From Propionibacteriaceae bacterium (lineage in GTDB: Bacteria > Actinomycetota > Actinomycetes > Propionibacteriales > Propionibacteriaceae), in the NCBI GenBank assembly GCA_031266665.1, contig JAISAO010000032.1:1-64000 (forward strand): a stretch of DNA of 64,000 nt. Direction: 5' to 3'. A model generated the notes under the pieces. The model ran no database searches, was not told the origin of the DNA, and saw only the letters and a program-made list of their open reading frames with translations. Position numbers and translations under genes: made by a program. Each line of letters begins with the position of its first letter. Within the stretch, counting starts at the first letter, position 1. Shown here one piece after another: positions 2,155-25,865 of the stretch.

Positions 2155-3663
2155 TCACAGGCCGCGCTTGAGGCGGTAGTAGGCGGCGTTCCAGCGCAGT
2201 TCCTGGGCGAAGCCCCGCCGGGTGGTGGCGGCGTCGATCAACACCCACTCGACGCCGGCCATGGCGGCGAAACCGGCGAAGTGCTCCGCCGTGGCGGCGG
2301 TCGTCATAACGGTGTGGTGGGCGCCGCCGGCCTCCAACCAGCAGGCCGCCGAGGTGGCCAGGTCGGGGTCGGGCCGCCAGACCGCCCGGCCCACCGGCAG
2401 CCGGGGCATGGGCCCGTCCGCCGCCACCAGCTGGACCGTGTTGGCGGTCAGCCGGAAGCGCTCCCCCAGGTCGGTCAGGGAGACCACCAGGCCGGGGCCG
2501 GGGTCGGCCTCGAAGACCAGCCGGACCGGATCGTGGCGGTTACCGATGCTGAGGGGGTGGATCTCGAGCCTGGGACGGCTGGCGGTCAAGGAGGGGCAGA
2601 CCTCGAGCATGTGGGCCCCCAGGACGCGCTCGCGGCCGGGGACCAGGTTGTAGGTGTAGTCCTCCATCAGCGAGGCCCCGCCCTTGAGACCGTCCCCCAT
2701 GACCTTGGCCGCCCGCACCAGGACGGCGGTCTTCCAGTCGCCCTCGGCCCCGAAGCCGTAGCCGTCGGCCGTCAGCCGTTGCACCGCCAGGCCGGGGAGC
2801 TGTTCCAGCGCCCCCAGGTCCTCGAAGTTGGTGGTGAAGGCCTTCGCCTGGCAGTCCTCTAGGAAGTGGCGCAGGGCGATCTCCTGGCGGGCGGCGTAGA
2901 CCAGGGCGGCGTGACGCTCCCCGCCGGCGCCCAGTTCGGGCGCGACCTGGTAGAGGTCCTGGTACTGGACCGTCAGGTCCTCGGCCTCGGACTCCCCCAC
3001 CTGGGCCACGGCCAGGGCCAGGTCGTGGACGGCCTGGCTGTTGACCGTCACGCCGAAGACGTGCTCGGCCTCGACCTTGTCCCCCTCGGTCACCGCCACG
3101 TCACGCATGTTGTCGCCGAAGCGGACCAGGTTGAGCCGTCGGGTGTCCTGCCAGCCGATGGCCGCCCGCGCCCAGCAGTCGATCTGGGCGACCACCTCCA
3201 GTTGGCCGACGTGGCCCATCACCGTCGCCCGGGACAGGCCCAGCCGGGTGGCCAGGGCGGCGAACTCGCGGTCGCCGTGGGCCGACTGGTGCAGGTTCAT
3301 GAAGTCCATGTCGATGGTCGCCCAGGGCAGTTGGGCCTCGGCCTGGGTGTGGAGGTGGAGCAGCGGCTTGTCCAAGGTGTCCAGGCCGGCGATCCACATC
3401 TTGGCCGGGGAGAAGGTGTGCATCCAGGCGATCACCCCGACCACGGCGTCGTCGGCGTCAGCCTCCAGCATGGTGCGACGGATGGCCGCCTTGTCGGTCA
3501 GCGTCTCCCGCCAGACCACTTGGACGGGCAGCCGGGCCTGGTCCAACTGGCGGGCGATGGCCCGGGAGTCGGCCTCCACCTGGGCCAACACCTCCGGACC
3601 GTAGAGGCCTTGGGAACCGGTCAGGAACCAGACCTGGGGCTGGCCGGAGGTTGGGGCGGACAT
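2155..3663 (-). CDS. araA: L-arabinose isomerase
   Basis: Converts L-arabinose to L-ribulose, the first step of arabinose breakdown, in the cytoplasm with Mn2+. The 502-residue length matches the family (about 500). The metal and catalytic residues are in place: Glu in [11 protein letters not shown], Glu in [10 protein letters not shown], His in [12 protein letters not shown] and a C-terminal His in GGAHHTV. The start is the ATG at 3663, preceded by GGAG eight bases upstream; an open frame continues further but reads as low-complexity proline/arginine sequence. Last gene of the six-gene arabinose operon (chvE-mmsA-mmsB-araB-araD-araA). Opposite-strand open frames here are shadows. Confidence 0.96.
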
Positions 3664-12142: not shown

Positions 12143-12682
12143 ATGGCCCGGCCGCGCAAGCAAGTCAACCAGCGTCTAGACACCCCCGGCCTGCGACGGC
12201 GCGGCTTCCTGCCCCGGCCCAAGGCCGACCCGGACCGTTTCGGCCGTTTCGCCGAGGCCTTCGCCCGGCGCATGGGCACGGCCAACTTCATTTTCTGGAT
12301 GACCCTGCTGGTGATCGTCTGGATCACGGCCAACCTGCTGATGGGGCGCGACTTGGCCTGGGATTGGTACCCCTTCATCCTGCTCAACCTGTTCTTCTCC
12401 GTCCAAGCCTCCTACGCCTCGCCCCTGATCCTGCTGGCCACCAACCGGCAGGAGGCCCGGGACCGCATCGGCATGGAGGCCGACCGCCAGCAGGCCGCCC
12501 AGTCGAGGGCCGACATGGACTTCCTGGCCCGGGAGATCGCCGGCCTCAGGACCCGCATGGGCGAGATGGCGACCCGTGACTTCATCCGCTCGGAGTTGCG
12601 CGACCTGCTGGACGAGTTGGACCGGCACGATCAAACACCGGCCGCCCAGACGGCTGGCGCTACCCTTGACCACCGTGACTGA
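12143..12682 (+). CDS. DUF1003 membrane protein
   Basis: A 179-residue protein with two membrane segments (about 51-66 and 76-95) separated by the WDWYPFILLNLFFS signature of DUF1003, then NRQEARDR and a charged, probably coiled-coil C-terminus. Function unknown in the family. A strong ribosome site AGGAGGTGA precedes the ATG. Its 3' end overlaps the mrp start by eight bases and it follows the MgtE_N/CBS gene, so the three are a conserved unit. The 266-base gap before it holds only GC-rich sequence with weak hairpins. Confidence 0.92.
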   Translation: MARPRKQVNQRLDTPGLRRRGFLPRPKADPDRFGRFAEAFARRMGTANFIFWMTLLVIVWITANLLMGRDLAWDWYPFILLNLFFSVQASYASPLILLATNRQEARDRIGMEADRQQAAQSRADMDFLAREIAGLRTRMGEMATRDFIRSELRDLLDELDRHDQTPAAQTAGATLDHRD

Positions 12683-13841
12683 ACCTTCCGTCGATCGCCT
12701 GACGGCGCTGCGGGCCGCTCTGGCCCAAGTCTTCGACCCCGAGCTGGGACGCCCCATCACCGACTTGGGGATGGTGGGCGACATCGCCTGGGCCGACGAC
12801 GGCCGGGTGACCGTCCAGCTCCGGCTGACGACAGCCATCTGCCCCTTGCGCGACCGCTTGGCGGCCGATATCGAGGCGGCGGCGGCGACCGTCGACGGCG
12901 TCACCGGCGTGACCGTGGAGACGGGCGTGATGGACGACCAGCAGCGCCAGGGGCTGCGCCGCTCCCTGGGCCACGGCCCGGCCCGCGACATCCCCTTCGC
13001 CCGCCCCGACAGCCCCACCCGGGTGATCGCCGTCGCCTCCGGCAAGGGCGGCGTCGGCAAATCCTCCATCACGGCCAATCTGACTTGTGCCCTGACGGCT
13101 TTGGGCCAGTCGGTCGGCCTGATCGACGCCGATGTCTACGGCCACTCCATCCCCGACCTGCTGGGGGCCGGCCCGGCGGACGGTCCGACCCAGTTGGAGG
13201 ACCTGGGACTGGTCCTGCCGGCCGAGTTGCGCGGCGTCAAGGTGATGTCGATCGCCATGATGAAGCCGGAGCGGGACCAGGTGGTGGCCTGGCGCGGCCC
13301 GATCGTGTCGCGCTCCTTGGAGCAATTCCTGACCGACGTCCACTGGGGCGACCTCGACTTCCTGCTGATCGATCTGCCCCCGGGCACCGGCGATGTCGCC
13401 TTGTCCGTCGGCCAACTGCTGCCCCGCGCCGAGGTGGTAGTCGTGACCACGCCCCAGGCGGCCGCCACCGAGGTGGCGGAGCGGGCCGGCACGATGGCCG
13501 CGATGCTGCGCCAACCGGTCATCGGCGTGGTCGAGAACATGAGTTATCTGGACTACCGCTGCCCCGACTGCGGCCAGACCCACCGGCTCGACCTCTTCGG
13601 CTCCGGCGGCGGCCAAGCGGTGGCCCAGAGCCTGACCCGCCGACTGGGCCACGAGGTGCCGCTGCTGGCCCAGATCCCGCTCGACCCCGACTGGCGCCAA
13701 GCTTCGGACGCCGGCGACCCGTCAGCCCTGCTGAACACGTCGCGCCCCTCGGCCCAGGCCGTCAAGGCCTTGGCCCAACGCTTGATCGCCACCCGCCCCG
13801 CCCCGGCCGGCGCCCCCATCTCCTTGGCCCAGCCCCGCTGA
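12675..13841 (+). CDS. mrp: Mrp/NBP35-family P-loop iron-sulfur cluster carrier
   Basis: Iron-sulfur cluster scaffold/carrier ATPase. It has an N-terminal MIP18-like domain (residues 1-95: FDPELGRPITDLGMV, Cys in TAICPLR), the deviant Walker A GKGGVGKS (123-130), Walker B DFLLIDLPPGTGD, and the C-terminal CPDC pair that binds the cluster. The start is GTG 12675, which overlaps the DUF1003 stop and lies eight bases after TACCCT; upstream frame is unrelated sequence. Its 3' end is the left boundary of the accessory island: the last 41 coding bases and the following 34 bases are duplicated near 18243. Confidence 0.95.
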   Translation: MTEPSVDRLTALRAALAQVFDPELGRPITDLGMVGDIAWADDGRVTVQLRLTTAICPLRDRLAADIEAAAATVDGVTGVTVETGVMDDQQRQGLRRSLGHGPARDIPFARPDSPTRVIAVASGKGGVGKSSITANLTCALTALGQSVGLIDADVYGHSIPDLLGAGPADGPTQLEDLGLVLPAELRGVKVMSIAMMKPERDQVVAWRGPIVSRSLEQFLTDVHWGDLDFLLIDLPPGTGDVALSVGQLLPRAEVVVVTTPQAAATEVAERAGTMAAMLRQPVIGVVENMSYLDYRCPDCGQTHRLDLFGSGGGQAVAQSLTRRLGHEVPLLAQIPLDPDWRQASDAGDPSALLNTSRPSAQAVKALAQRLIATRPAPAGAPISLAQPR

Positions 13842-13918
13842 GGATTCACCCGAGAAACAACTTATTCACCTTGCTGCTGGGTTGAGTATCATGTCACTGA
13901 TTCCGGTAGCAAGTTACT
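13801..13918. repeat. Left 118-bp direct repeat (3' end of mrp)
   Basis: This stretch aligns without gaps to 18243-18360 (offset exactly 4442). The first 75 bases, covering the last codons and stop of mrp plus 34 bases beyond, differ at two positions. The following 43 bases are about 70 percent identical. Between the copies lies cassette 1. The arrangement looks like an integrated element whose attachment site is the mrp 3' end, leaving mrp intact. No integrase gene is visible inside. Confidence 0.85.
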
Positions 13919-13938
13919 CGACGGAGTAGCAAGTCACT
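13885..13938. repeat. Three palindromic 14-mers at exact 20-bp period
   Basis: Units at 13885, 13905 and 13925 (AGTATCATGTCACT, GGTAGCAAGTTACT, AGTAGCAAGTCACT) share the near-palindromic form AGTANCAWGTYACT and are spaced 20 bases apart, about two helical turns. Matching units occur at 18327 and 18347 beside the right repeat. They look like an array of protein-binding sites (recombinase, accessory factor or repressor) rather than coding sequence. Confidence 0.75.
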
Positions 13939-13993
13939 GCGGCGTCCCCCACAACTCGCCCCACCCGTCCACTGGCAAGGGGTCTGGATCGTT

Positions 13994-14042
13994 CCACAAC
14001 GGTGCTGTAGGTTGACGGCAAGGTGAAGCGAAAGGACGTGCC
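13994..14042 (+). promoter_or_regulatory. Conserved cassette promoter and ribosome site (cassette 1)
   Basis: CACAACGGTGCTGTAGGTT contains a likely -10 box TAGGTT (14008-14013). AAAGGA (14031-14036) lies six bases before the ATG of the Trypco2 gene. The same elements precede cassette 2 (20369-20418) with few changes, although the sequence further upstream differs, so the promoter was duplicated with the genes. Confidence 0.65.
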
Positions 14043-14348
14043 ATGGCGAGCACCATTCCCGTGTCCGAGGCCATCGAAGCGTTACTCGACGAAGTGGAGA
14101 AATCCGTCAAAGCCGGACAAGACCACGACCTGCGCTTCCTAGTGGACGAGGTCAAACTAGAACTACAGGTCACGGCCACCACCGAGGGACCGGTCGACGC
14201 GAAAGTCAAATGGCTCATCTTCGAGGCCGGCGACGAGGCCTCACACCAATCCGCCCACGTCCAAACCATCACCTTGACCCTCAAAGCCGTCACCCAAAGC
14301 CCAGACGGCCAAACCACCCCGCTCCTGCTGTCCTCGCCCGAGGGCTGA
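14043..14348 (+). CDS. Trypco2-type (trypsin-co-occurring) small protein, cassette 1
   Basis: A 101-residue protein with IPVSEAIEALLDEVEKSVK, DLRFLVDEVKLELQV and TITLTLKAV segments, the pattern I recognise as Trypco2. That small alpha+beta domain is repeatedly encoded beside trypsin-like/STAND proteins in predicted conflict systems. Its biochemical role is not known; it may regulate or gate the partner protease. It is 21 bases upstream of the giant partner gene. Bases 14095-14182 are identical to 20471-20558 in the second cassette, so the two copies are recent duplicates or have undergone gene conversion. Confidence 0.8.
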   Translation: MASTIPVSEAIEALLDEVEKSVKAGQDHDLRFLVDEVKLELQVTATTEGPVDAKVKWLIFEAGDEASHQSAHVQTITLTLKAVTQSPDGQTTPLLLSSPEG

Positions 14349-14369
14349 GCCCGAAGACGAGGGCGTGAC

Positions 14370-17300
14370 ATGAACGCCACTCCCGGCCTCGAGTTGACAG
14401 ACCGGGCCGTCCAGTTGACACACCCGGGCGGGACCGGTTCCGGGTGGCGTCTGGGCCGCGGGTTGGTCCTGGCCGCCAGACGCTGTTCCACGGCCGACGC
14501 GCCACAGCGTCAAGTCAGCGATCTGGCCGGGCGGCGCCATTGGGCCGAGGTGGTCTGGTTCAGCCCCAGCGCCGAGGTCGACTTGGCCCTGTGGCGGGTG
14601 GCCGATTTCCGAGACGACCCCCCGATACCTCTGGCCTTGATAGACCGGACCTGTGGCGGGGACCTGCCGGCGACCGGTTACGGCTTTCCCGCGTTCTTCC
14701 AGCCGTCCCACCGGCCGGTCGGCGGCCCCGGACCGGCCTGGCGGCCCAGACCGACGCCCGACGGCGGCCATCGGTTGGAGCGGCTGACCGGGCGTATAGC
14801 GCCGGCCCAGGGACCGGGAGCGGGAGTCCCCCTGCCCCCGGTCCTCTTCACGGCCGACGCCAACCAGACGGTCGGGCCGAAAGCCGAACGGCCGGAGCCG
14901 GCGAGGGCCGGGGCTGGGGCCGAAGAACCGGGCCCGGTGAAGCTGGATTGGGAATCCCTCGTCGGGGCGCCCATCCTGGTAGGCCAGGCCGGGGAGCACC
15001 ATTGCGTCGGCCTGGCGCGCGACTTCGGCCTGGAGTGTCAAAGCGGGACCCTCGAGGTGGCCGGGTTCGACAGCCTCGCCCGGCCCGGAGCGGACGCCGC
15101 CGGTTTTTGGGATCAGGTCGCCTGGGTCCGGCCGGACACCATGCCCGTCTTGCGAGGCGACGGCCGGGAGCGTCTGATTTGGACGCGCCTGTGCCCGGCC
15201 GAGGCCCCCCACCACATTTCCCGCCGAGCCTCCCGGGAACTGGAGCAGGCCCTGCTCAAGCACCATCGGGCGACCTTGTGGGGGCTCCCGGGAAAAGGCC
15301 AGTCCCAGATCGCCGCCGCCCTCGTCAGGCGGTGCCGGGCGGAGGGCTGGCTGGAGGTCTTCTGGGTCGACGCCGGCAGCCGCGACGCCCTGCTGTGGGA
15401 GTTGAGACTAATCGCGCAGAGCCGCCGCTTGGCCCATCCCCACCAGGATCCGGAGAGCGCCGCCGCCAGTCTGGTCGGCCATTGGAACCGCCATCCCCAG
15501 CGCCGCCTGATCGTCTTCGACAACTTGACCGACCGGAAACACCTATCCGACCTCCGGTTGAGGCCGGCCGCCGCCACCGTCGTGGTCACCGCCGCCGACC
15601 AGGCCGCCGTCCCCTTCCCCCGGTCGGCCCCCCGGATCGAGGTCGGAGCCCTCACCGAACAACAAGCCCAGGACTATCTGACTGCCGGCGCCAGGCTGGA
15701 CGACCAAGCCGCGCCCGGGGCCGCCCGAGTCGCGGAACGCCTGGGCCGCCTACCGCTGGCCCTGGCCCAAGCCGCTGGCGTGGTCCGGCTGCGCCGTGGC
15801 GACGACCCGGGCTACGACTACGCCGCCTACCTGGCCGACCTCGACACCCCGCCCCAGGACCGCGCCCCGGTTTTTGAACTGGGCGCGGGCTATCCCCCAG
15901 ACGCCGCCCGCGCCATCCTCCTAGCCCACGACACCGCCATCGAGGCCGCCGCCGACCGCCGCCGGTTGGTCGCCGACATCATCACCGCGCTGGCCTTCCT
16001 CGACCCGGCCGGCGTCCACCGCACCCACCTGGCCGCGCTGACGGCCGACGGCCCAGCCGGCGACGACGACCTGGCCTGGGCACTGGGATTGTTGGAGGGC
16101 GTCTGTCTGGTCGCCCGCCGCCAAGACGGTCAGACCGTCGTCATGCACCGCCTGGTCTCCCGGGTCATCCGCCACCGCCTCAGCCACGGCTCCGACGGCG
16201 CGACCGCCGTGGACCCGACGCCCGAGCCCATCGTCAAAGTCCTAGACGTCATGACCGCGGCCCCGACCGACGGCTACGCCGAGCAGCGGCGAACGGCCGG
16301 CGAACTGGCCGCCCACCTGTCCTGGCTGCTGCGGCGCCGCCCCACCACCGACCAAGACCGGACCGTCCTCGCCTGCGCCCGCGCCCTGGTGGAGTTGAAC
16401 GATCCCTTCAGCGCCATAGCCGTCTTGACCATCGCCCACGACAACGACGCCTTGCTGCTCGGCTTGGACCACCTAGACACGCTCACCACCTGCGGCGACC
16501 TGGCCGACGCCCACCTGGCCGCCGCCCACATGACTGTCGGTTGTCTGGCCACCGGCCAGTTGGACGCCGGACACGCCGACCAAGCCATCGCCCTGCTGGA
16601 GCGCAACCTGGCCGACTACGAGCGCCTGCTCGGGCCCGACCACCCCAAGACACGCGCCGCCCGCGACAAATTGGCCAATGCCCACTGGTCGGCCGGAAAC
16701 TTCAGCCAGGCCATTGTCATGCGCCAGCGCGGCTTGGCCGACAGCGAACGCCTGCTCGGGCCCGACCACCCCAAGACGCGCGCCGCCCGCGGCAGCCTGG
16801 CCTCGGCCCACTGGGACGCCGGCCAGACCGACCAGGCCATCGCTCTGCTGGAGCTCAACCTGGCCGACCGCGAACGCCTGCTCGGACCCGACCACCCCGA
16901 CACGATCCACTACCTCGGCATCGTGGCCGCCGCCCACCAGCAGGCCGGGGACCTTGACCGGGCCATCGCCCTGCTGGAGCGCGCCCTGACCGCCCGCGAA
17001 CGCCTCTCCGGGCCGGACCACATCCAAACACTCGTCGCCCGCGACAACCTGGCCGCCGCCCACCAAGCCGCCGGACAGGCCGGCCAAGCCATCGACCTGC
17101 TGGAACGCAACCTGGCCGCAGACGAACGCCGCCTCGGACCCGACCACCCCACCACGCTCCGCGTCTGCGACCGGCTGGCCTTCGCCCACTGGTCCGCCGG
17201 ACACCACGACCAAGCCATCGCCTTGTACCAACGCCTGTTGGCAGCCCACGAGCGTCTCTCAGGGCTCGACCGCCCCGACACGATCCGGTCCCGCCACAAT

Positions 17301-18203
17301 CTGGCCGAGGCCCGTCGGAGCGCCGGACAGACCGACCAAGCCATCGACCTGCTCGAGCGCGTCCTGACCGACAGCCAACGTGTCCTCGGACCCGACCACC
17401 CCTTCACCATCCTCTACCGCAGCAACCTGGCCGCCGCCCACCAAACCGCTGGACACCTCGATCGGGCCATCACCCTGCTCAAACGCAACCTGACAGACAA
17501 CGAACGCATCCTCGGGTCGAACCACCCCGACACGGTCTCTTCCCGCCACAGCCTCACCGCCGCCCACCAAACCGCCGGACACTCCGACCAAGCCATTGCC
17601 CTGCTTAAACGCGACCTGACAGACAGCCAACGCCTGCTCGGATCCGACCACCCCGACACCCTCATCGCCCGCAACAAACTGGCCGAGGTTCAGCGGGAGG
17701 CCGGACAGGCCGACCAGGCCATCGCCCTGCAGGAGCGCAACCTGGCCGACAGCGAACGCCTTTTCGGACCCGACCACCCCAACACGCTCGCCTTCCGCAA
17801 CAATCTCGCCTTGGCCCACCAGGGGGCCGGACACCTCGACCAAGCCATCGACCTGTATCAACGCAACTTGGCAGACAGCGAACGTGTCCTGGGGCCGGAT
17901 CACCCCGACACCCTCATCTATCGCAACAACCTGGCCGCCGCCCACCAGGGCGCCGGCCACCTTGACCGAGCCATCGCCATACATGAGCGCAACCTGACAG
18001 ACAGCGAACGTGTCCTCGGACCGGACCACCCCGCAACCCTCACCTCCCGCAATAATCTCGCCAAAGCGCTGTGGGAGGACGGTCAGCGGGACGCGGCCAG
18101 AGAACAGATAACCCGGGCGGAGCGGGACTCAGCCGCTCTCAACCCCGAGCACGAGGTGCGCCAGAAGATCGTGTCCAACCGGGCGGCCATGGAACAGCCA
18201 TGA
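14370..18203 (+). CDS. Trypsin-like/NB-ARC STAND protein with TPR array, catalytically degenerate
   Basis: 1277 residues. Residues about 10-240 are a trypsin-like fold (SGWRLGRGLVLAARRC, EVDLALWRV, ESLVGAPILV). About 300-480 are an NB-ARC/STAND P-loop domain (WGLPGKGQSQ, RRLIVFDNLT, RLPLALAQAA). About 480-730 are helical, and 734-1237 are twelve 42-residue TPRs. Key residues are lost: the protease His is Arg38, the protease Ser is Val198 (Asp71 remains), and the Walker A Lys is Gln311; the second cassette keeps all three. I infer a non-catalytic receptor, adaptor or decoy using its TPRs to bind a ligand. The intact reading frame argues against a simple pseudogene. Base composition is GC-rich like the host. 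Confidence 0.85.
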   Translation: MNATPGLELTDRAVQLTHPGGTGSGWRLGRGLVLAARRCSTADAPQRQVSDLAGRRHWAEVVWFSPSAEVDLALWRVADFRDDPPIPLALIDRTCGGDLPATGYGFPAFFQPSHRPVGGPGPAWRPRPTPDGGHRLERLTGRIAPAQGPGAGVPLPPVLFTADANQTVGPKAERPEPARAGAGAEEPGPVKLDWESLVGAPILVGQAGEHHCVGLARDFGLECQSGTLEVAGFDSLARPGADAAGFWDQVAWVRPDTMPVLRGDGRERLIWTRLCPAEAPHHISRRASRELEQALLKHHRATLWGLPGKGQSQIAAALVRRCRAEGWLEVFWVDAGSRDALLWELRLIAQSRRLAHPHQDPESAAASLVGHWNRHPQRRLIVFDNLTDRKHLSDLRLRPAAATVVVTAADQAAVPFPRSAPRIEVGALTEQQAQDYLTAGARLDDQAAPGAARVAERLGRLPLALAQAAGVVRLRRGDDPGYDYAAYLADLDTPPQDRAPVFELGAGYPPDAARAILLAHDTAIEAAADRRRLVADIITALAFLDPAGVHRTHLAALTADGPAGDDDLAWALGLLEGVCLVARRQDGQTVVMHRLVSRVIRHRLSHGSDGATAVDPTPEPIVKVLDVMTAAPTDGYAEQRRTAGELAAHLSWLLRRRPTTDQDRTVLACARALVELNDPFSAIAVLTIAHDNDALLLGLDHLDTLTTCGDLADAHLAAAHMTVGCLATGQLDAGHADQAIALLERNLADYERLLGPDHPKTRAARDKLANAHWSAGNFSQAIVMRQRGLADSERLLGPDHPKTRAARGSLASAHWDAGQTDQAIALLELNLADRERLLGPDHPDTIHYLGIVAAAHQQAGDLDRAIALLERALTARERLSGPDHIQTLVARDNLAAAHQAAGQAGQAIDLLERNLAADERRLGPDHPTTLRVCDRLAFAHWSAGHHDQAIALYQRLLAAHERLSGLDRPDTIRSRHNLAEARRSAGQTDQAIDLLERVLTDSQRVLGPDHPFTILYRSNLAAAHQTAGHLDRAITLLKRNLTDNERILGSNHPDTVSSRHSLTAAHQTAGHSDQAIALLKRDLTDSQRLLGSDHPDTLIARNKLAEVQREAGQADQAIALQERNLADSERLFGPDHPNTLAFRNNLALAHQGAGHLDQAIDLYQRNLADSERVLGPDHPDTLIYRNNLAAAHQGAGHLDRAIAIHERNLTDSERVLGPDHPATLTSRNNLAKALWEDGQRDAAREQITRAERDSAALNPEHEVRQKIVSNRAAMEQP
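16569..18080 (+). repeat. Twelve 126-bp (42-residue) TPR-coding units
   Basis: Each unit encodes a TPR of the kinesin-light-chain/NB-ARC type built on AIxLxxRxLxxxERxLGPDHPxTxxxRxxLAxAHxxAG. Twelve complete units follow one another without gaps and a degenerate cap ends the protein. Units 10-12 are most alike, pointing to recent unit duplication. Variation is concentrated at a few surface positions and at the inter-unit XDXA residues, as expected for a ligand-binding superhelix. Confidence 0.85.
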
Positions 18204-18242
18204 CGGAATGCCCGCCTGGTGGCGACTTGATCATGCGTCCCA

Positions 18243-18360
18243 CCCCGGCCGACGCCCCCATCTCCTTGGCCCAACCCCGCTGAGGATTCACCCGAGAAAC
18301 AACTTATTCACCTTGCTATTGCGTCCAGTAACATGTTACTGAATAAAGTAGCAAGTCACA
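18243..18360. repeat. Right 118-bp direct repeat (copy of mrp 3' end) with two 20-bp-spaced palindromes
   Basis: Copy of 13801-13918, still readable as the Mrp C-terminus (APISLAQPR and stop). It contains the perfect 14-base palindrome AGTAACATGTTACT (18327-18340) and a second unit AGTAGCAAGTCACA (18347-18360). Recombination between the two repeats would release a 4442-base circle holding exactly the Trypco2 gene and its giant partner. Confidence 0.85.
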
Positions 18361-18462
18361 GAAGTTGTGAGTGCTGACCGGAAACCGGCACAACCCCAAT
18401 GTCAGGTGGACCCTGGCCCAGCCACAGTGATTCACATCTTGGAGAGCAGAGCGACTGACACT

Positions 18463-19032
18463 ATGAAACCTGACACGCAGGAGTTGGTGTTCGCCTCCCG
18501 CGGCTTGTTCCGGGAATGGCTGACCACTCACGGCGGGTCGAGCAACGGGGTGCGGCTCGTGTTCGACAAGACAAAGGAACGCACGACCCTGACTGCCCAC
18601 GAGGCGCTGGAGGAAGCCCTGTGCTTCGGTTGGATCGACGGCCAGATGCGCAGCATCGACGACGCCAAGTACGCCAAGTACTTCGCCCGCCGCCGCCCCG
18701 CGAGCGTGTGGTCCCAGAGGAACAAAACACTTGTGACCGACCTTCGTGACCGGGGCTTGATGACCGCCGCCGGAGAGGAAGCCGTCCGGGTCGCAGTCGA
18801 AAACGGCCAGTGGGACGCGGCCAAGCCGGAGTCGGCGACCGATCAGCAGGTGGCGCAACTGGGCGAACGGCTCCGTGGCCACTCTCCGGCGTTTGAGCAC
18901 TTCTGCGCCATGTCACCCTCGGTGCGACGGACCTACGCCCGCCGCTACCTGTCGTTCAAGAGCGACGAGGCCCGCGAGCGTGATCTCGCCAGAATCATCG
19001 ACCGGCTCGACCAGAACCTGAAACCGATGTGA
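18463..19032 (+). CDS. YdeI/OmpD-associated family protein
   Basis: 189 residues with the family hallmarks LVFASRGLFREWL, HEALEEALCFGWIDGQMRSID and ARRRPASVWSQRNK, ending in a basic helical region. Members are small cytoplasmic proteins sometimes called bacteriocin-protection proteins; the true activity is unclear. I chose ATG 18463, where family similarity begins; an in-frame GTG at 18367 would add 32 unrelated residues. It lies between the right mrp-end repeat and the toxin-like pair, inside the island. The 175 bases after it hold nothing recognisable. Confidence 0.8.
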   Translation: MKPDTQELVFASRGLFREWLTTHGGSSNGVRLVFDKTKERTTLTAHEALEEALCFGWIDGQMRSIDDAKYAKYFARRRPASVWSQRNKTLVTDLRDRGLMTAAGEEAVRVAVENGQWDAAKPESATDQQVAQLGERLRGHSPAFEHFCAMSPSVRRTYARRYLSFKSDEARERDLARIIDRLDQNLKPM

Positions 19033-19207
19033 CCACACCTCTTCCTCCGATCTTCCTCCGAGTCGGCGCTGTGGGCCCACTCCGAGACCAGCAGGGCCGT
19101 ACCTGTAGGTGTCCTGCAAAGCCGGCTCGCCGTGCTCGCCTCAAGGCCGCGCTCATCAGTGCGGGATCGACGACTGGAAGCTGACTTAAGGTTGCGGCGG
19201 TTGGATG

Positions 19208-19665
19208 TCAGCGGAAGAGGCCGAGTGTGGGCAGAAGCCTCGTGGCCGCGTCAACGATCCGTTGGGCGTCCGCCAGGGCCTCCGCCAACTCCTCCGGCGA
19301 CACCTGGTCGCCGGGCATATCCGGGTACTCCAACTCGTTACGCCGGCGGCGCAACGCGCCGAAGACCCTCATCCCCGGGCCGAACTGCTCCCTCAGCGCC
19401 CGTTCCACCACGTAATGGCCCCCAGCCGTGGTCGGACGCAAACCCTGCTGGGCCAACAAGGCCGTCCCGGCCTGACGGGCGGCGTCATAGGCCAAGACGA
19501 ACGACGAATCGGGATCGCTCCCAGCGACGCCGCGCGCGGTCGCGAGCGTGCGCCCGGCCTTGGCCAAAAGACTCCCCCGTCGGCGGCCTCGCCCGTGATC
19601 GCCTGGAGGGTCCCCTGGGCCAGGGCCGCCTCAATGTCGGCGGCGCCGCGCTGCCACTGACTCAC
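19208..19665 (-). pseudogene. HEPN-domain protein, frameshifted at a homopolymer
   Basis: Two frames together encode one HEPN-like protein. The first (GTG 19665, MSQWQRGAADIEAAL...GEAADGG) and the second (LLAKAGRTLATARG ... LRRRRNELEYP ... TLGLFR, stop 19208) join if one base is added to the C5 run at 19574-19578. The second part carries the RxxxxN/EY motif of SAV_6107-like HEPN domains, putative RNA-acting partners of MNT nucleotidyltransferases. The start overlaps the MNT stop (GTGA). The shift could be real inactivation, phase variation or a sequencing error. A shorter product from 19567 might still be made. Confidence 0.7.
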
Positions 19666-20261
19666 GGCTCATCGCCCCCCAAGACCACATCCCCCAGAAC
19701 CACGACGAACGGCGACCGGTGGATCTGGGCGACCAACTTGTCCTGGCCGGCCGCCCACTGGGTCTCCGTCCGGACAACAGGATTGACGGGCAGACCGATC
19801 CTCGCCTGGGCGGCGTCGGCGGCGTCGTAGACCTCCGACCGGGCAGGCCGCCCGACGACCAGGACGTCGATGTCGTTCGGGGGCGGGCCGGGCTGACCGT
19901 GGTAGCGAGCGGCCCACGACCCGAAGATCAAGACCGCCGCCGCCCCCAGATCGGCGAAGGCCTCGGCCACGACGACCGCCGGGCCGAAGGTCAACTCCAT
20001 GACCCGGCGCAACGGCTCGAAGGCCGGATGGCCCTGGTCGGCCCGGACCATCCGATTGCGCCCGACAGTCCGCGTGGCCACCAGCCGGGCCTCCGTCAGA
20101 TGGCCGACGTCCCGCTGAGCGGTCGTCAAATTCACGCCGACAACCCGCGACAACTCGCTGACGCTGTACTCACAGTCGGGATGGATGAGCAGCCAAGCCA
20201 ACAACTCGCCCAACGTCCGGCTGCGCATGATCGGCAACAGACTCGGCGGCTCGCTCCTCAT
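19662..20261 (-). CDS. Winged-helix/MNT nucleotidyltransferase (antitoxin-like)
   Basis: 199 residues: an N-terminal winged helix (about 10-70, LGELLAWLLIHPDCEYSVSE), then a minimal nucleotidyltransferase with GSWAARYHG and the metal pair in NDIDVLVV (GSx..DxD). MNT proteins paired with HEPN toxins can AMPylate or silence them (MntA-HepT type), which fits the overlapping downstream HEPN gene. ATG 20261 lies eight bases after TATATT, again a leaderless arrangement. The HTH suggests autoregulation. Confidence 0.85.
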   Translation of the reverse strand: MRSEPPSLLPIMRSRTLGELLAWLLIHPDCEYSVSELSRVVGVNLTTAQRDVGHLTEARLVATRTVGRNRMVRADQGHPAFEPLRRVMELTFGPAVVVAEAFADLGAAAVLIFGSWAARYHGQPGPPPNDIDVLVVGRPARSEVYDAADAAQARIGLPVNPVVRTETQWAAGQDKLVAQIHRSPFVVVLGDVVLGGDEP

Positions 20262-20368
20262 AGACGACTAATATAACCCATCTAAGGGGTAGAACGGTCA
20301 TCGCCGCCGAGGCCACCCGTTAGAAGGTCTGCCCCCCGCCACTCATCTAGCACCGGACTACGGCCACC

Positions 20369-20418
20369 CCGCAACGGTGTTGTAGGTTTGGTGTCAACGG
20401 TGAAAGAAAGGACGTGCC
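20369..20418 (+). promoter_or_regulatory. Conserved cassette promoter and ribosome site (cassette 2)
   Basis: CGCAACGGTGTTGTAGGTT with TAGGTT at 20383-20388, and AAAGGA six bases before ATG 20419, copy the element in front of cassette 1. Conservation of promoter and leader suggests both cassettes respond to the same control. Confidence 0.65.
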
Positions 20419-20724
20419 ATGGCGAGCACCATCCCCGTGTCCGAGGCCATCGAGGCGCTGCGCGGCGAACTGGAGAAATCCGTCAAAGCCGGACAAGACC
20501 ACGACCTGCGCTTCCTAGTGGACGAGGTCAAACTAGAACTACAGGTCACGGCCACCACTACGGGAACGGGCAAAGCCGGCATCAAGTGGCTCCTCTTCGA
20601 GGCCGGCGGCGAGGCCTCGCACCAGTCCGCCCGCGCCCAGACCATCACCTTGACCCTCAAAGCCGTCGCCCAAGGCCAAGACGGCCAAACCGGCCCGCTC
20701 CTGCTGTCCGCGCCCGAGGACTGA
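20419..20724 (+). CDS. Trypco2-type small protein, cassette 2
   Basis: A 101-residue paralogue of the protein at 14043, with identical EKSVKAGQDHDLRFLVDEV and similar TITLTLKAV strands. The middle (TGTGKAGIKWLLFEAGGEASHQSARAQ) differs. It is followed after 17 bases by the giant partner gene. The family is known as a companion of trypsin-like STAND proteins; direct regulation of the partner is inference. Confidence 0.8.
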   Translation: MASTIPVSEAIEALRGELEKSVKAGQDHDLRFLVDEVKLELQVTATTTGTGKAGIKWLLFEAGGEASHQSARAQTITLTLKAVAQGQDGQTGPLLLSAPED

Positions 20725-20741
20725 CCTGAGGCGGGTGTGCC

Positions 20742-23700
20742 ATGGTCGCCCGTCGCGCCGTCAAACTGACCTACCAGGCCCCTGACACGCGCCCCGACAG
20801 CAGCGTCCAGGGGAGGATCGTCCTCTGGGGCGGCTCCGGTTGGCGCTTAGGCCGTGGCCTGATCCTGACCGCCGGACACTGCTCCGGGGCCGGCACCACC
20901 AACCACCAGGTCAAGACCACAGACGGAACCGTCCACGACGCCCAGGTGGTCTGGACCAGCCCCCGCGCCGACGTGGACCTGGCCCTATGGCGAGTGGAAG
21001 CCCTGGCCGAGGACGAGACGACTCCCCTGGTCTTGCTGGATCGGCACTCAGCCGATCTGGTGAACGCGACCGGCTTCGGCTACCCCGCCTTCCTCCGCCA
21101 ACCCGCCGCAGGACAGCCCACCGCCCCTCAACGGGAACAGCTGAACGGCACCATATCGCCCGCCCACGGTGAGGCCCTGGGAGCAACCGCCTCACCGCTC
21201 TACTTCGTCACCGACCCCACTAACACCGTCATGTCCAGCGGCGGGCCGGGAGACTGGCAAGCCCTCTCCGGCGCCTCTGTCCTGGTCGACCACGAAGGTG
21301 AGCACCATTGTGTCGGCGTGGTGCGCAGCCACCACCGCGAGCACGCCGCCAACGTCTTCGAACTGACCGGTTTCGACAGTCTGCTGCGCCTGCTTAGCAC
21401 CACAGAGGCGGCCGGCTTCTGGGAACATGTCACCTGGGTCAAACCAGACACCATGCCCGTCCTGAAGGGCAACCACCGGGAACAACGTCTGATCTGGACC
21501 CACCTATGCCCGGCCGAGGCCCCCCACTACGTCACCCGCCAAGCCTTGACGGAGTTGAAGGACGCCTTGCGCGACTTCCACCGGGCAACCCTGTGGGGCC
21601 TCAAAGGAGCCGGCAAATCCCAGATCGCCGCCGCCCTCGTCCGACAATGCGAGAACGAAGGCTGGTCAGAAGTCCTCTGGGTCAACGCCGAAGACCGCAC
21701 CTCCCTGCTGAGTGACCTTAAACATATCGCGATGATAATCGACCAAGGCAACAACGACTTGGAACCTGAAAAAGCCGCCGCCTGGCTGATCAGCCACTGG
21801 AACAGCAACCAAAGCCGACGCCGCCTGATCGTCTTCGACGATTTGACCAACCTAGACGACCTGACCGGCCACATCCCGGAACCAGCCGCCGCCACAGTCA
21901 TCATCACCATCGCCGAACATAGCGCCGCCCCCGACGAGAACCAAATCCCCCTAATCGAAGTCGAGCCATTCACCGAGTCAGAGGCCCGAAACTACCTGGG
22001 GAACCGCACCAACCTAGGCGACCTAGAAGGAGCTAACCAAGTGGCGGAACGCCTCAGCCGACTACCACTGGCCCTCTCCAAAGCCGCCGACGTGATCAAC
22101 CTCCGCAATGAGTACGACCCTAACTATGGCTACTCAGAATACCTGGATGACCTCGCCGCCCAGCCCATGGAAACGGCTCCACTCCGGCACAAAAGAGACT
22201 ATATAATAACCGATTCAACTATCCCTCCAACACTTTCAAAACTCTTAAAAGCATTATTCCCATATTTTACAAGCGCCTCGATGGGCGTGGAATATTTTAC
22301 ATGCGTATTCTTAGATGCTATAACAAACTGGAGATATTTCTATTACGATGATCACCTCGAGAAAGGTGGCTCAGAGTTCAAAGAACTCATGCATGAACTT
22401 TTTTTCGGGACAACCGACCCGCCGCCTTTGCTTACTAGACAAATTCAACTGGCAATGAAAAATGAGTATGTCATTGATTTTATAAACAACTTCTTCGACG
22501 CAAAACGAGACGAACTATTACAACATTTTAATTTTAGCAAAGAGGATCCGCCTGATGCATTTCACGAATTTCTGAGTTCAACCCTCCATGCTATTTTTAA
22601 TCAACAATCTAAATTGAAATTAACCGGCGGAAGCTACGAAGATCTCCTACTTGGTAAAGACGGTATCCCGTATGTATCAGAATTATCTCCTAGCACTCTC
22701 TGGATAAATTTTTCAGACAACTCTAATCGCGCAACGTCTGAACAACAGAATCGCTTTAACGAGAAAAACCGGACTGCTAGTCTATGCGGCAGGTTTAACG
22801 AACTTAATTGCCTCATTGATTTTTGTAATGTGCGAGTTCCAAATCAGCATTTCCTATGGTTTGCTATTTCCGGAGTGGGAGGAAGTGGAAAGTCTCGACT
22901 TTCGCGTGAGCTAATGGAATGGATTACATACACTGAAAGTGATTGGAAAGCGGCGATACTCCGCGAGCCGGATATTGAGCAAATAACTAACGCAAGATCG
23001 CAAATAGCGAACGGAAATAAGACGATCATCATATTAGATCATTACAAGTGGTATATGAATCAGCTGAAAGAAATCACAAACTGGCTCTTTAATGATAGCG
23101 AAACGTATGCCACCGAAGTGAGGCTTCTTCTTATTGAACGCGATCCCGTAGATAAAGATCGCCTGCCTTGGGATCGGGACGTGAAGTCCACACAGTTCAT
23201 TCCTCGCATTAATTCAGCGGCGTACTTAGATCATTCTGGATTAATGATAATGCTGCCACTCGATGATATCGTTCTCTCTGAGTTAATTGACAGCTATGCC
23301 CGCGGTGTAGGCGCGAATCAGACAGTCGATGAGACGACGGTCCTAAAGCTACTGCAAGACTTCGATAAAGGGTTTAAGATACCATTATTCGTACAATTCA
23401 TTGCAGATGCAGTAATAAACGGTAGTGAGGTCAGGGGCTGGAATCGTGAAAGAGCTTTGGAATACGCTTTGGACTCTGAATTCGACTATCTTCGCCACAA
23501 TTGTGAGAGCTATGGCACTCTTACGGGACCTGAACTAGAAAGCCTCGTGCGACTATGCCGAACGCTTCTGATAGTTGCTTCACTGGCTGGCTCACTTCCC
23601 TGGAAACATGTGCTGACTCTATTCCCTGACGAGTACAATAGACTTAACAGATTCTCCGCGATGGTTGAACTCAACAGTCCGCGTGCATTGCTGTCAGAAT

Positions 23701-25013
23701 GTCTGGGATATTCTGTGATCGAAGAGATTTTACCAATTCAACCAGACCTTATCGGAGAATACTATATTCTCACTGCATTTCGAAAAATGAATACGGAAGA
23801 ACGACGACACACCATTCGCGTTGCTGCTGAAGTTGACTTCAATAAGTTATTCGAGCGCTGCAATCGAATTCGAAGCGATTTTTGGCACCTCCTTGACCGC
23901 CTCGGACTACTCGAACACTTCTTGGAAAAATCTCTCATAGACGCCCGTATGGGCGATCCATTCCTCGTGCTAGATGGTCACGCCTGGGATAGAATTGATA
24001 AGGATAATTCACGCCGCAACGACTACCCCGCGTTGTTAATTAGTCGCTATATAATACTCCGAGAAAGGTATCACTCGAGTGAACACAGCGGCGTCAGCTG
24101 GGAAACTAGCTATCTTCGCACGTTATTGAATGGACCAGTGCGTGAGCGGTTGGAAAAATCTCTAAGTGAAAGTTATCCAGATCTATTTTTAATGGAAGGA
24201 TATGACTCAAGTGGAGTAAACGACAAAGTTTTCATACTCAACCAAAATGAAATTCGGAGGTATTATGACTTACCACTCGATTCGATGGATTCACCGGAGC
24301 CAGGGAGCAATACACTAGTGGCAATAGACGTCAGCCCTGAAGGAGATGAGAGGCCGCGTCGATGGTGGCTCCGGTCGGAAGGATATGCATTCATAATTTC
24401 CAATTACGGTTCTATCTATAACTATGATCATTATTTCGATGATGCAGACACGGGTGTCCGACCTGTTTTCTGGGTTGATAGACGCAAGACTCTAGGAGAA
24501 ATTTGTATAATGAACAATACGTCAGTAAACGATACCCGGATCCAGGTTCGCGCAGGAATCATCTGGTCGACCCAAAACCGGACTCGTAAAATACAGCTTA
24601 GAAAGATGCTTGAACCAAGGTTCGCCATCGCTAAGCATTACCTAATAGAATTATGGGATTCAGATACTGATTCACTCGCCGGGCTGCCAGCAGATCAGTA
24701 TCTGAACGAATTAGCTGCGTCTCATATTATAATATTACTTGTCTCGCCTGATATGCTGGCGTCCAAAGTGGTGCAGAACCTCGAACTGAAAATTGCCGCT
24801 AATAAGATCCGGATTCCCGTGGGCCTAGTCCGCGTGCCACTCACGCCGGGGGCTCTGTGGGACTCTCGCGTCACTACTGATCAATTAGTGCTTGATAACG
24901 GGAAATTTTTCGCCGAACTCAGAGGTACTAGCGCCAAGGAGACCTTCGCTGACCAGGTGGTCAGGCAGACTCTCCGTCGTCTTGACGAGGAAAATCTGAA
25001 GGCTTATTCATAA
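20742..25013 (+). CDS. Chimeric trypsin-STAND-STAND-DUF6273-TIR-like protein
   Basis: 1423 residues in one frame. Residues 25-220: trypsin-like domain with an intact triad (His46 in LTAGHC, Asp79 in DVDLALW, Ser176 in LSGAS). 280-470: NB-ARC/STAND (Walker A GLKGAGKS 286-293, Walker B RLIVFDDL near 366, RLPLAL). At about residue 483 (nt 22190) the DNA turns abruptly AT-rich. Then follow a helical region, a second P-loop NTPase (GVGGSGKS 711-718; IIILDH, Asp766), a DUF6273-like domain (WWLRSEGYAF ... GVRPVFWVD, about 1205-1250), and a TIR-like C-terminus (ELWDSD ... IIILLVSPDMLASK, candidate catalytic Glu1348). The first TIR strand is atypical. Likely a conflict-system sensor/effector with both protease and NADase-type modules; function inferred. 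Confidence 0.8.
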   Translation: MVARRAVKLTYQAPDTRPDSSVQGRIVLWGGSGWRLGRGLILTAGHCSGAGTTNHQVKTTDGTVHDAQVVWTSPRADVDLALWRVEALAEDETTPLVLLDRHSADLVNATGFGYPAFLRQPAAGQPTAPQREQLNGTISPAHGEALGATASPLYFVTDPTNTVMSSGGPGDWQALSGASVLVDHEGEHHCVGVVRSHHREHAANVFELTGFDSLLRLLSTTEAAGFWEHVTWVKPDTMPVLKGNHREQRLIWTHLCPAEAPHYVTRQALTELKDALRDFHRATLWGLKGAGKSQIAAALVRQCENEGWSEVLWVNAEDRTSLLSDLKHIAMIIDQGNNDLEPEKAAAWLISHWNSNQSRRRLIVFDDLTNLDDLTGHIPEPAAATVIITIAEHSAAPDENQIPLIEVEPFTESEARNYLGNRTNLGDLEGANQVAERLSRLPLALSKAADVINLRNEYDPNYGYSEYLDDLAAQPMETAPLRHKRDYIITDSTIPPTLSKLLKALFPYFTSASMGVEYFTCVFLDAITNWRYFYYDDHLEKGGSEFKELMHELFFGTTDPPPLLTRQIQLAMKNEYVIDFINNFFDAKRDELLQHFNFSKEDPPDAFHEFLSSTLHAIFNQQSKLKLTGGSYEDLLLGKDGIPYVSELSPSTLWINFSDNSNRATSEQQNRFNEKNRTASLCGRFNELNCLIDFCNVRVPNQHFLWFAISGVGGSGKSRLSRELMEWITYTESDWKAAILREPDIEQITNARSQIANGNKTIIILDHYKWYMNQLKEITNWLFNDSETYATEVRLLLIERDPVDKDRLPWDRDVKSTQFIPRINSAAYLDHSGLMIMLPLDDIVLSELIDSYARGVGANQTVDETTVLKLLQDFDKGFKIPLFVQFIADAVINGSEVRGWNRERALEYALDSEFDYLRHNCESYGTLTGPELESLVRLCRTLLIVASLAGSLPWKHVLTLFPDEYNRLNRFSAMVELNSPRALLSECLGYSVIEEILPIQPDLIGEYYILTAFRKMNTEERRHTIRVAAEVDFNKLFERCNRIRSDFWHLLDRLGLLEHFLEKSLIDARMGDPFLVLDGHAWDRIDKDNSRRNDYPALLISRYIILRERYHSSEHSGVSWETSYLRTLLNGPVRERLEKSLSESYPDLFLMEGYDSSGVNDKVFILNQNEIRRYYDLPLDSMDSPEPGSNTLVAIDVSPEGDERPRRWWLRSEGYAFIISNYGSIYNYDHYFDDADTGVRPVFWVDRRKTLGEICIMNNTSVNDTRIQVRAGIIWSTQNRTRKIQLRKMLEPRFAIAKHYLIELWDSDTDSLAGLPADQYLNELAASHIIILLVSPDMLASKVVQNLELKIAANKIRIPVGLVRVPLTPGALWDSRVTTDQLVLDNGKFFAELRGTSAKETFADQVVRQTLRRLDEENLKAYS

Positions 25014-25865
25014 CGTCCTGAGGTGTCCTGAAGAATTCGAACACACGGTCTCCAGATCTGCGTTCGCTCCCATCTGCACCGGAAACACCCACCCGAGGGC
25101 ACCTCGCATGGCGGCGACGTAGTCCCGCACCACCGGCACCGCCGCTCGCCCGTGCTCGGCCACCAGACGGACGATGGCCGAGCCGACGATGACGCCGTCG
25201 GCGAAGCGGGCCACCGCCTTGGCCTGGTCCGGGGTGGCGATGCCGAAGCCGACGGCGCAGGGGATCTTCGTGGCCGGCCGCGCCTGGGCCACCAGTTGGG
25301 CGGCCTGGTCGCCCAGGGAGTCGCGCACCCCGGTGACGCCGAGGGATGAGACGCAATAGAGGAAGCCCTCGGCCTGGGCGGCGATGGCGGCCACCCGGCC
25401 GGCCGAGGTCGGGGCCACCAGCGAGATCAGGCTGAGGCCGTGTCGACGGCAGGGGTCGGCCAGCTCGGCCCGCTCCTCGAAGGGCAGGTCGGGCACGATC
25501 AGGCCGTCCAGGCCGACGGCGGCGGCCCGCTCCAGGAAAGACTCAACGCCGTGGGCGAAGATCGGGTTGTAGTAGGTCATGAAGACCAGCGGCACATCCA
25601 GGTCGGCCCGCAGCCGGGCCACCAATTCGAAGTGGTGCTCCAGTTTGACGCCACCGGCCAGAGCCCGGGCGCTGGCGGCCTCGATCACCGGCCCCTCGGC
25701 CACCGGGTCGGAGAAGGGCAGGCCGAGTTCGACCAGATCGGCTCCGGCCGCCACCATGGCCCGGACCAGGGCCTCAGTAGTGGCCAGATCGGGGTCGCCG
25801 GAGGTGACGAAGGGGATGAAGGCCTTGCCCCGGGCGAAGGCCCGGGAGATGCGATTGTCAGTCAT
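25008..25865 (-). CDS. trpA: Tryptophan synthase alpha subunit with atypical C-terminal tail
   Basis: Cleaves indole-3-glycerol phosphate to indole and glyceraldehyde-3-phosphate, working with TrpB. Catalytic Glu in [13 protein letters not shown] and Asp in [10 protein letters not shown] are present, as are the phosphate-binding GFGIATP and GSAIV loops. The family normally ends near VAAMRGAL; here a further 28 residues (from GWVFPVQ to GHLRTL) follow, coded by sequence at the island junction. The stop lies within the last codons of the convergent island gene. ATG 25865 overlaps the trpB end by eight bases. Confidence 0.95.

Follow-up and report, generated by a model that had tools for sequence, protein, structure and literature searches.

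Kaur et al. (2020; PMC7159879) placed Trypco1 and Trypco2, together with trypsin-like peptidases, in nucleoside triphosphate (NTP)-dependent conflict systems. We analyzed a locus of this kind in a 64,000-nucleotide (nt) stretch of DNA from a Propionibacteriaceae bacterium (hereafter, the window), which is part of contig 44 of an assembly of 3.28 Mb and 106 contigs. Between mrp and trpA lie two cassettes, each consisting of a Trypco2 gene (tc1 or tc2) and a large gene for a receptor with trypsin and NTPase domains (S1 or S2). The locus is real and well defined and represents a known kind of predicted conflict system; its new features are a putative pseudo-receptor (S1), an apparently chimeric partner (S2), and seemingly homogenized Trypco2 genes. 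Our favored reading, to which we give roughly even chances, is that S2 is a working receptor and that S1 is a catalytically dead one, kept as a noncatalytic sensor, regulator, or decoy, with Trypco2 serving both receptors.

As in the systems of PMC7159879, a small Trypco gene adjoins a trypsin-domain gene, and inactive enzyme domains are a stated theme there. Unlike those systems, in which nearly all trypsins in the effector position (fused to vWA) are inactive, this locus has an NTPase-linked trypsin predicted to be inactive beside an intact neighbor. The MoxR-vWA-VMAP ternary system was not recognized: in a scan confined to the seven proteins of the island and the two that flank it, none matched MoxR, vWA, or VMAP.

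The nearest functional analogues that we found are the CARD-NLR system LypABC of Caulobacter (PMC13236601) and the paired NLRs of plants, RGA4/RGA5 and RRS1/RPS4 (PMC9528088). LypABC likewise combines a trypsin-ATPase protein with a STAND-TPR protein and has one degenerate member, the LypA ATPase being without Walker A/B residues; unlike here, the LypA protease is active and needed, and the receptors are different proteins rather than two copies of one architecture. The LypABC paper does not use the name Trypco2. The plant pairs resemble this locus in having two clustered, divergent receptors, one of which tolerates P-loop loss and one of which bears an integrated extra domain. They differ in that here the extra domain is on the catalytic member, the genes lie on the same strand with others between them, the pairing does not recur in the genomes sampled, and the pair is known from sequence alone. 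Like the C-lectin/STAND sensors linked to diversity-generating retroelements (DGRs; PMC10907252), where Trypco genes occur at DGR loci, the window has a STAND protein with a domain of a C-type-lectin-like-fold family; unlike at those loci, none of the nine proteins scanned here matched a reverse transcriptase, and no wider search was made. S1 also matches NCBIfam NF040586 (FxSxx-COOH system TPR protein) at 412.7 bits (cutoff, 300), from which it differs by an added N-terminal trypsin domain; no other FxSxx-system model matched among the seven island proteins. In the titles and abstract openings listed for bacterial sensor/helper NLRs, STAND pseudoenzymes, and TIR/NLR/trypsin combinations, excluding subscription papers and preprints, we found no degenerate/intact pair of the Trypco2/trypsin-STAND family.

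Catalytic residues of S1 and S2

The two cassettes and the residues that set their receptors apart are as follows.

14043-18203, + strand: cassette 1 (tc1-S1)
14370..18203, + strand: S1, 1277 amino acids (aa), with a predicted trypsin-like pseudoprotease, an NB-ARC-like NTPase, a winged-helix-like region, and a TPR array
14481..14483, + strand: S1 codon 38, Arg; catalytic His in 46/46 other trypsin domains
14961..14963, + strand: S1 codon 198, Val; catalytic Ser in 46/46 other trypsin domains
15282..15305, + strand: degenerate Walker A of S1, GLPGKGQS, with Gln in place of Lys
16545..18056, + strand: S1 TPR array, twelve units of 42 aa (126 nt) with a clear consensus kept
20419-25013, + strand: cassette 2 (tc2-S2)
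20742..25013, + strand: S2, 1423 aa; Trypsin_2 and nSTAND3 above Pfam cutoff
20742..22184, + strand: S2 N-terminal half, trypsin domain and NB-ARC/nSTAND3 NTPase; His46, Asp79, Ser176; Walker A GLKGAGKS (residues 286-293)

The TPRs of S1 score above the Pfam cutoff and its NTPase matches are weak; its trypsin-like N terminus was revealed by alignment with relatives and not by Pfam. When five members were aligned, S1 was the only one in which Arg replaces the catalytic His, Val the Ser, and Gln the Lys of Walker A, the Walker A motif being kept in S2 and in the related loci L021, L022, and L023. S1 thus has neither the His-Asp-Ser triad of an active trypsin-like serine peptidase nor the GxxxxGK[ST] motif of a STAND/NB-ARC NTPase, and the first 480 residues of S2 have both. 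A profile of five N-terminal halves matched APAF1, NRC1, and Roq1 in the PDB over the NTPase and HTRA2 over the protease, the latter at an E value of about 0.07.

We then compared a wider set of trypsin domains. A class-wide search had given 55 Trypco2 matches outside the window; apart from two in G370 that lie on other contigs, these are covered by 51 fetched regions, to which three loci of the genus and the window were added. Six of the 51 had no trypsin match (L093, L094, L130, L131, L133, and L135). The set yielded 53 trypsin-like stretches, 5 of which lacked at least one triad column; in the 48 complete domains, the triad is R-D-V in S1 and H-D-S in the other 47, which include S2 and one unrelated trypsin (L121 3321-4484). 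For column-by-column comparison, the unrelated row and rows under 150 positions were dropped, leaving 46 domains apart from S1. Five columns are 100% conserved among these 46, and S1 has lost exactly the His and the Ser and kept the Asp and two Gly. At the 21 columns conserved in at least 80%, S1 keeps 16 and S2 keeps 19. S1 is predicted to be a pseudoenzyme that retains most conserved positions of the fold and the TPR array. Absence of the Walker A motif does not by itself single out S1: 6 of 44 partner proteins, S1 included, are without it, although some of these perhaps have a second half of another type than STAND or one truncated at a contig end. The initial annotation had described one noncatalytic receptor with TPRs and one catalytic receptor, and these residues agree with it; the loss of the Walker A Lys was not part of that description, nor were the low-GC half of S2, the homogenized Trypco2 genes, and the 124-nt repeat treated below.

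The low-GC half of S2

S2 departs from the rest of the family in its second half, which occupies the place of the winged-helix/TPR half of other members.

22185..25013, + strand: S2 C-terminal low-GC module, comprising about 190 aa of unknown type, an nSTAND5-like NTPase, DUF6273, and a TIR-like domain
22872-22895, + strand: second Walker A of S2, GVGGSGKS
24033..24479, + strand: DUF6273 domain (PF19789, 35.4 bits; cutoff, 23.5)
24525..25010, + strand: TIR-like domain with a Glu invariant in six aligned homologues

GC content falls from 0.59 to 0.34 at about 22185-22200, stays at 0.34 to 0.55 until the S2 stop, and is 0.71 beyond it. DUF6273 scores 30.3 to 35.5 bits, above the cutoff of 23.5. 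This family is described as having a C-type-lectin-like fold and as a target of diversity-generating retroelements (PMC10743442, PMC11792537), and because of these two reports we read the domain in S2 as a putative ligand-binding sensor. For the TIR-like end, all six aligned homologues match TIR_2 at an E value of ≤0.1 (best, 1.9e-9), and they weakly match two distinct TIR sequences in the PDB (E values of 0.015 and 0.045). The initial annotation had given sensing to S1 and catalysis to S2; the division is incomplete in that S2 has a DUF6273/TIR-like module of its own.

Parts of the module occur elsewhere. Of 19 genomes in the genus, 6 (counting that of the window) have DUF6273; the NTPase region was matched in four genomes of the family; and in a further Trypco2 cassette, L085, the trypsin protein has a weak nSTAND5 match (27.6 bits; cutoff, 34). 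Searches of plasmids, phages, viral contigs, 394 class genomes, and 198 family genomes gave matches to single regions and no relative of the module as a whole. These findings bear on a further explanation, that the chimeric half is an assembly artifact of a metagenome-assembled genome, for which the sharp GC step and the missing relative of the whole module speak. The artifact would need two false joins, one keeping a frame of 1,423 codons and one setting the stop 6 nt into the end of trpA; this, with the DUF6273 domains of the genus and the L085 match in a trypsin protein of a Trypco2 cassette, makes it highly improbable. S2 looks like a live, chimeric receptor.

An origin from a mobile element was considered and rejected, as no relative of the S2 module was found in phages, plasmids, or viral contigs. 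Nor was a relative of the trypsin-NTPase half or of Trypco2 confirmed in viral contigs, and of 19 plasmid records, the ten listed have matches confined to the NTPase region. A separate 166-aa gene on contig 35 of G000 (2745-3215; L003 1492-1989) is 32% identical to the TIR-like end of S2; it has GC-richer surroundings and is the sole other match to the S2 module in its genome. Another genome, G004, has 19 DUF6273 matches, at least 11 of them on the single contig 62 (L172), and the set resembles an expanded family whose members may bind ligands.

Constraint, descent, and recurrence of the cassettes

Both Trypco2 proteins score above the PF19631 cutoff, and each gene adjoins a trypsin-domain gene.

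14043..14348, + strand: tc1, Trypco2 protein, 101 aa (PF19631, 73.3 bits; cutoff, 24.2)
14095..14182, + strand: 88-nt run identical between tc1 and tc2; 1 in 20,000 shuffles gave a run at least as long
20419..20724, + strand: tc2, Trypco2 protein, 101 aa (PF19631, 87.5 bits; cutoff, 24.2)

A structure model of Trypco2 was poor (predicted local distance difference test score [pLDDT], 47) and of no use for a fold search. The nearest named relatives of the receptor genes are in metagenome-assembled genomes of Propionibacteriaceae. In a tree of trypsin domains, S1 groups with L021 (support, 100/99) and S2 lies outside L022 (95/79); in a Trypco2 tree, tc1 groups with tc2 (99/94). Synonymous divergence between tc1 and tc2 is 0.15, compared with 0.60 to 0.90 in the other five Trypco2 pairs (NG86 estimates), and the 88-nt run is likely a gene conversion tract. 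Recent tandem duplication of one cassette was rejected on account of the 51% identity of S1 and S2 in the aligned N-terminal half and the grouping of S1 with L021. The simplest reading is that cassettes of separate descent came together and that gene conversion later homogenized their Trypco2 genes.

We then asked how far cassette 1 is still constrained. Neutral drift was simulated with 400 runs per setting: in all four settings with 0.11 or 0.15 changes per site, no run left the S1 frame open, and at 0.07 it stayed open in 0 to 1% of runs; S1 does not look like long-neutral DNA. The ratio of nonsynonymous to synonymous divergence (dN/dS, NG86) between S1 and L021 is 0.54 for the trypsin domain and 0.49 for the NTPase, and other pairs range from 0.41 to 0.71 (the YN00 method failed for most receptor pairs). 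A rival explanation is that cassette 1 is a decaying pseudogene, in which the catalytic residues of S1 were lost as no longer needed and S2 acts alone. It draws on the relaxed constraint in tc1 and the N-terminal half of S1, on the longer branch of S1 (0.46, compared with 0.19 for L021), and on the high dN/dS between tc1 and tc2 (0.76, compared with 0.25 to 0.29 in the other five pairs by NG86, and 0.34 compared with 0.08 to 0.17 by YN00 where that method ran). Among 11 TPR units, the three codon positions have diverged about equally (0.31, 0.26, and 0.29), which also fits decay and is by itself no argument for purifying selection there. The 1,277 open codons of S1, the 16 of 21 conserved trypsin columns and TPR consensus that it keeps, and an S1-L021 dN/dS of about 0.5, inside the range of other pairs, make the pseudogene somewhat unlikely. 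Together, the data show constraint on cassette 1 that is apparently relaxed but not absent.

Several observations count against the favored reading of a maintained S1 beside a working, chimeric S2. At 0.03 changes per site, 10 to 15% of simulated genes stay open, which is compatible with a recent loss of function. The N-terminal half of S1 has an excess of changes at codon positions 1 and 2: lineage changes by position are 38:17:18 in S1, 29:28:48 in S2, 23:17:25 in L021, and 45:46:65 in L022 (Fisher P value for S1 of 0.005 against the others pooled and 0.10 against L021 alone). This skew would also fit slow decay, as would the 23 lineage changes of tc1 (15 at codon positions 1 and 2 and 8 at position 3) compared with 8 in tc2. 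Given how much S1 has changed overall, the loss of three of its six catalytic residues has a P value of about 0.05 (hypergeometric; 18 of 113 columns changed), and the comparison of conserved columns is a better argument than this count. On the side of S2, the nSTAND5 match (22.8 bits) is under the cutoff of 34, the TIR match of S2 alone (14.3 to 14.5 bits) is under the Pfam cutoff of 28, and a structure model of the C-terminal half was poor (pLDDT, 34) and of no use for a fold search. Expression and activity are predictions for both S1 and S2.

The initial annotation had proposed that the cassettes work as a pair, a claim that recurrence elsewhere would support. In the class sample, Trypco2 was found in 40 of 394 genomes, and two copies within about 7 kb were seen in 2 of these 40, the window's genome and G395 (at most 13 candidates were scored per genome; many assemblies are fragmented, and pairs may be missed). 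Both triads are intact in the G395 pair, so the combination of degenerate and intact was seen once, in the window. In the family sample, 6 of 198 genomes had Trypco2, and the sole close pair was that of the window's genome. In a Streptomyces-type genus, 253 of 392 genomes had Trypco2 (at most 14 candidates scored in each), and inspection by eye found no two within 15 kb among the matches listed; the G395 pair is not among them, and this sample adds little. Recurrent pairing of degenerate and intact forms was thus not found in the class and family samples, the co-occurrence test set by the initial annotation does not support a working pair, and the recurrent clustered pairing of sensor/helper NLRs is likewise not seen in these samples. 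At the G395 locus (L087, 5546-18022), one strand carries a Trypco2 gene, a stand-alone trypsin gene, and an NB-ARC-TPR gene, and the other strand carries a second Trypco2 gene and a gene for a 1,530-aa trypsin protein.

These counts bear most on the explanation that S1 and S2 form an obligate sensor/executor pair like the sensor/helper NLRs of plants, the TPRs of S1 detecting a signal and releasing or recruiting the S2 protease. The parts are complementary, S1 being dead in both active sites with TPRs and S2 intact in both without them; the Trypco2 genes are homogenized; and the plant pairs RGA4/RGA5 and RRS1/RPS4 are inactivated by P-loop mutation of the helper and not of the sensor (PMC9528088). 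We nevertheless consider an obligate pair quite unlikely. It is a single instance, S2 has its own sensor-like module, gene conversion is possible from physical proximity alone, and the extra domain is on the sensor in the plant pairs (PMC9528088) but on the catalytic member here. Homogenization of Trypco2 and the complementary losses leave the pair a low probability.

The island and a proposed model for the locus

The remaining features of the island and its flanks are as follows.

12576-13841, + strand: mrp, flank of the island
13794..13917, + strand: direct repeat copy A, the last 48 nt of mrp and 76 nt downstream
13997..14013, + strand: upstream box of cassette 1, CAACGGTGCTGTAGGTT
18236..18359, + strand: direct repeat copy B, 87% identical to copy A, starting 33 nt past the last base of the S1 stop
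18463..19032, + strand: YdeI/OmdA-like gene (PF13376, 30.4 bits; cutoff, 25.6); the open reading frame possibly starts at 18367
19208..19567, - strand: HEPN-like protein (PADLOC PDC-M05B; under Pfam cutoff)
19662..20261, - strand: helix-turn-helix nucleotidyltransferase, MNT-like (PADLOC PDC-M05A, E value of 4.6e-46)
20372..20388, + strand: upstream box of cassette 2, CAACGGTGTTGTAGGTT
25008-25865, - strand: trpA, flank of the island

From mrp to trpA, the order is tc1, S1, the YdeI-like gene, the HEPN/MNT pair on the opposite strand, tc2, and S2. S1 starts 21 nt past the tc1 stop and S2 starts 17 nt past the tc2 stop; the stop of S2 (25011-25013) runs 6 nt into the 3′ end of the convergent trpA (25008). 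These coordinates and Pfam matches bear out the two cassettes of a small protein and a giant protease-NTPase initially annotated between mrp and trpA, and the YdeI-like and MNT/HEPN genes called between them are confirmed by Pfam and PADLOC. The HEPN and MNT proteins match the PADLOC defense candidate PDC-M05A/B; tc1, tc2, S1, S2, and the YdeI-like protein matched no PADLOC model at an E value of ≤0.01. It is probable that the two cassettes share one defense island.

A box, CAACGGTG[C/T]TGTAGGTT, lies upstream of both cassettes (at 13997 and 20372) with no further match on either strand of the window, in keeping with the matching promoters noted initially; ahead of the homologous L021 cassette, from another species of the genus, this region is conserved as well (90% over 50 nt). 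The 124-nt direct repeat (87%) lies on either side of cassette 1, takes in the last 48 nt of mrp, and carries two palindrome-like 12-nt units, GTAGCAAGT[T/C]AC, 20 nt apart (13906-13937 and 18328-18359). A pattern search of the whole genome found the double unit solely at the two repeat copies. Because part of the 124-nt element also follows the L021 receptor gene, the repeat may belong to the cassette rather than mark an integration site. The 12-nt unit array (GTARCAWGTYAC) is flanked by ACAACTT...AAGTTGT in copy B and L021, a degenerate array follows the related receptor gene in L021 (5087-5169), and the array is possibly an operator or recombination site.

Insertion of a cassette at the 3′ end of mrp would fit the data. 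In G012, a distance of 2.2 kb without a cassette separates mrp from trpA; none of the 14 further mrp stretches, several of them short, showed trpA. The seven island proteins and two flanking ones gave no match to a transposase or integrase. One mrp match with a single internal stop codon was noted in each of G009, G006, G002, and G011 (L027, L028, L029, and L031), for which pseudogenes, assembly errors, and alignment ends are candidate explanations.

The anatomy, the lost and kept residues, the composition break, and the likeness of the Trypco2 genes can be read directly from the DNA; every functional step that follows we infer. On our favored reading, S2 would be a trypsin-NB-ARC protease whose winged-helix/TPR half gave way to an nSTAND5-DUF6273-TIR-like module that differs in base composition. 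When the new half bound a ligand, NTP-dependent assembly would follow and would switch on the trypsin domain, Trypco2 acting as an adaptor or a substrate. S2 might also consume NAD through its TIR-like domain, and the infected cell would be stopped. S1 would persist as a noncatalytic sensor, regulator, or decoy, Trypco2 being common to S1 and S2. A stronger version, which we regard as a long shot, would make this the first receptor pair of its kind in bacteria: a TPR pseudo-receptor dead at both the protease triad and the P-loop Lys would control a catalytic partner that had gained a foreign NTPase-lectin-TIR module, and a Trypco2 adaptor, its copies held similar by gene conversion, would couple them. 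This sensor/executor logic would have arisen independently of plant paired NLRs.

Roles for Trypco2 are proposed in PMC7159879 and PMC10907252, and in the available parts of both papers Trypco2 itself is untried. The locus offers a natural experiment in which the Trypco2 copies were kept alike and the receptors diverged in opposite ways, S1 losing catalysis and S2 swapping its sensor half. If S1 does not modulate S2, the locus documents receptor decay and module swapping at a sharp boundary just past the NTPase domain; if it does, bacteria would have a pseudo-receptor layer like those of plants and animals.

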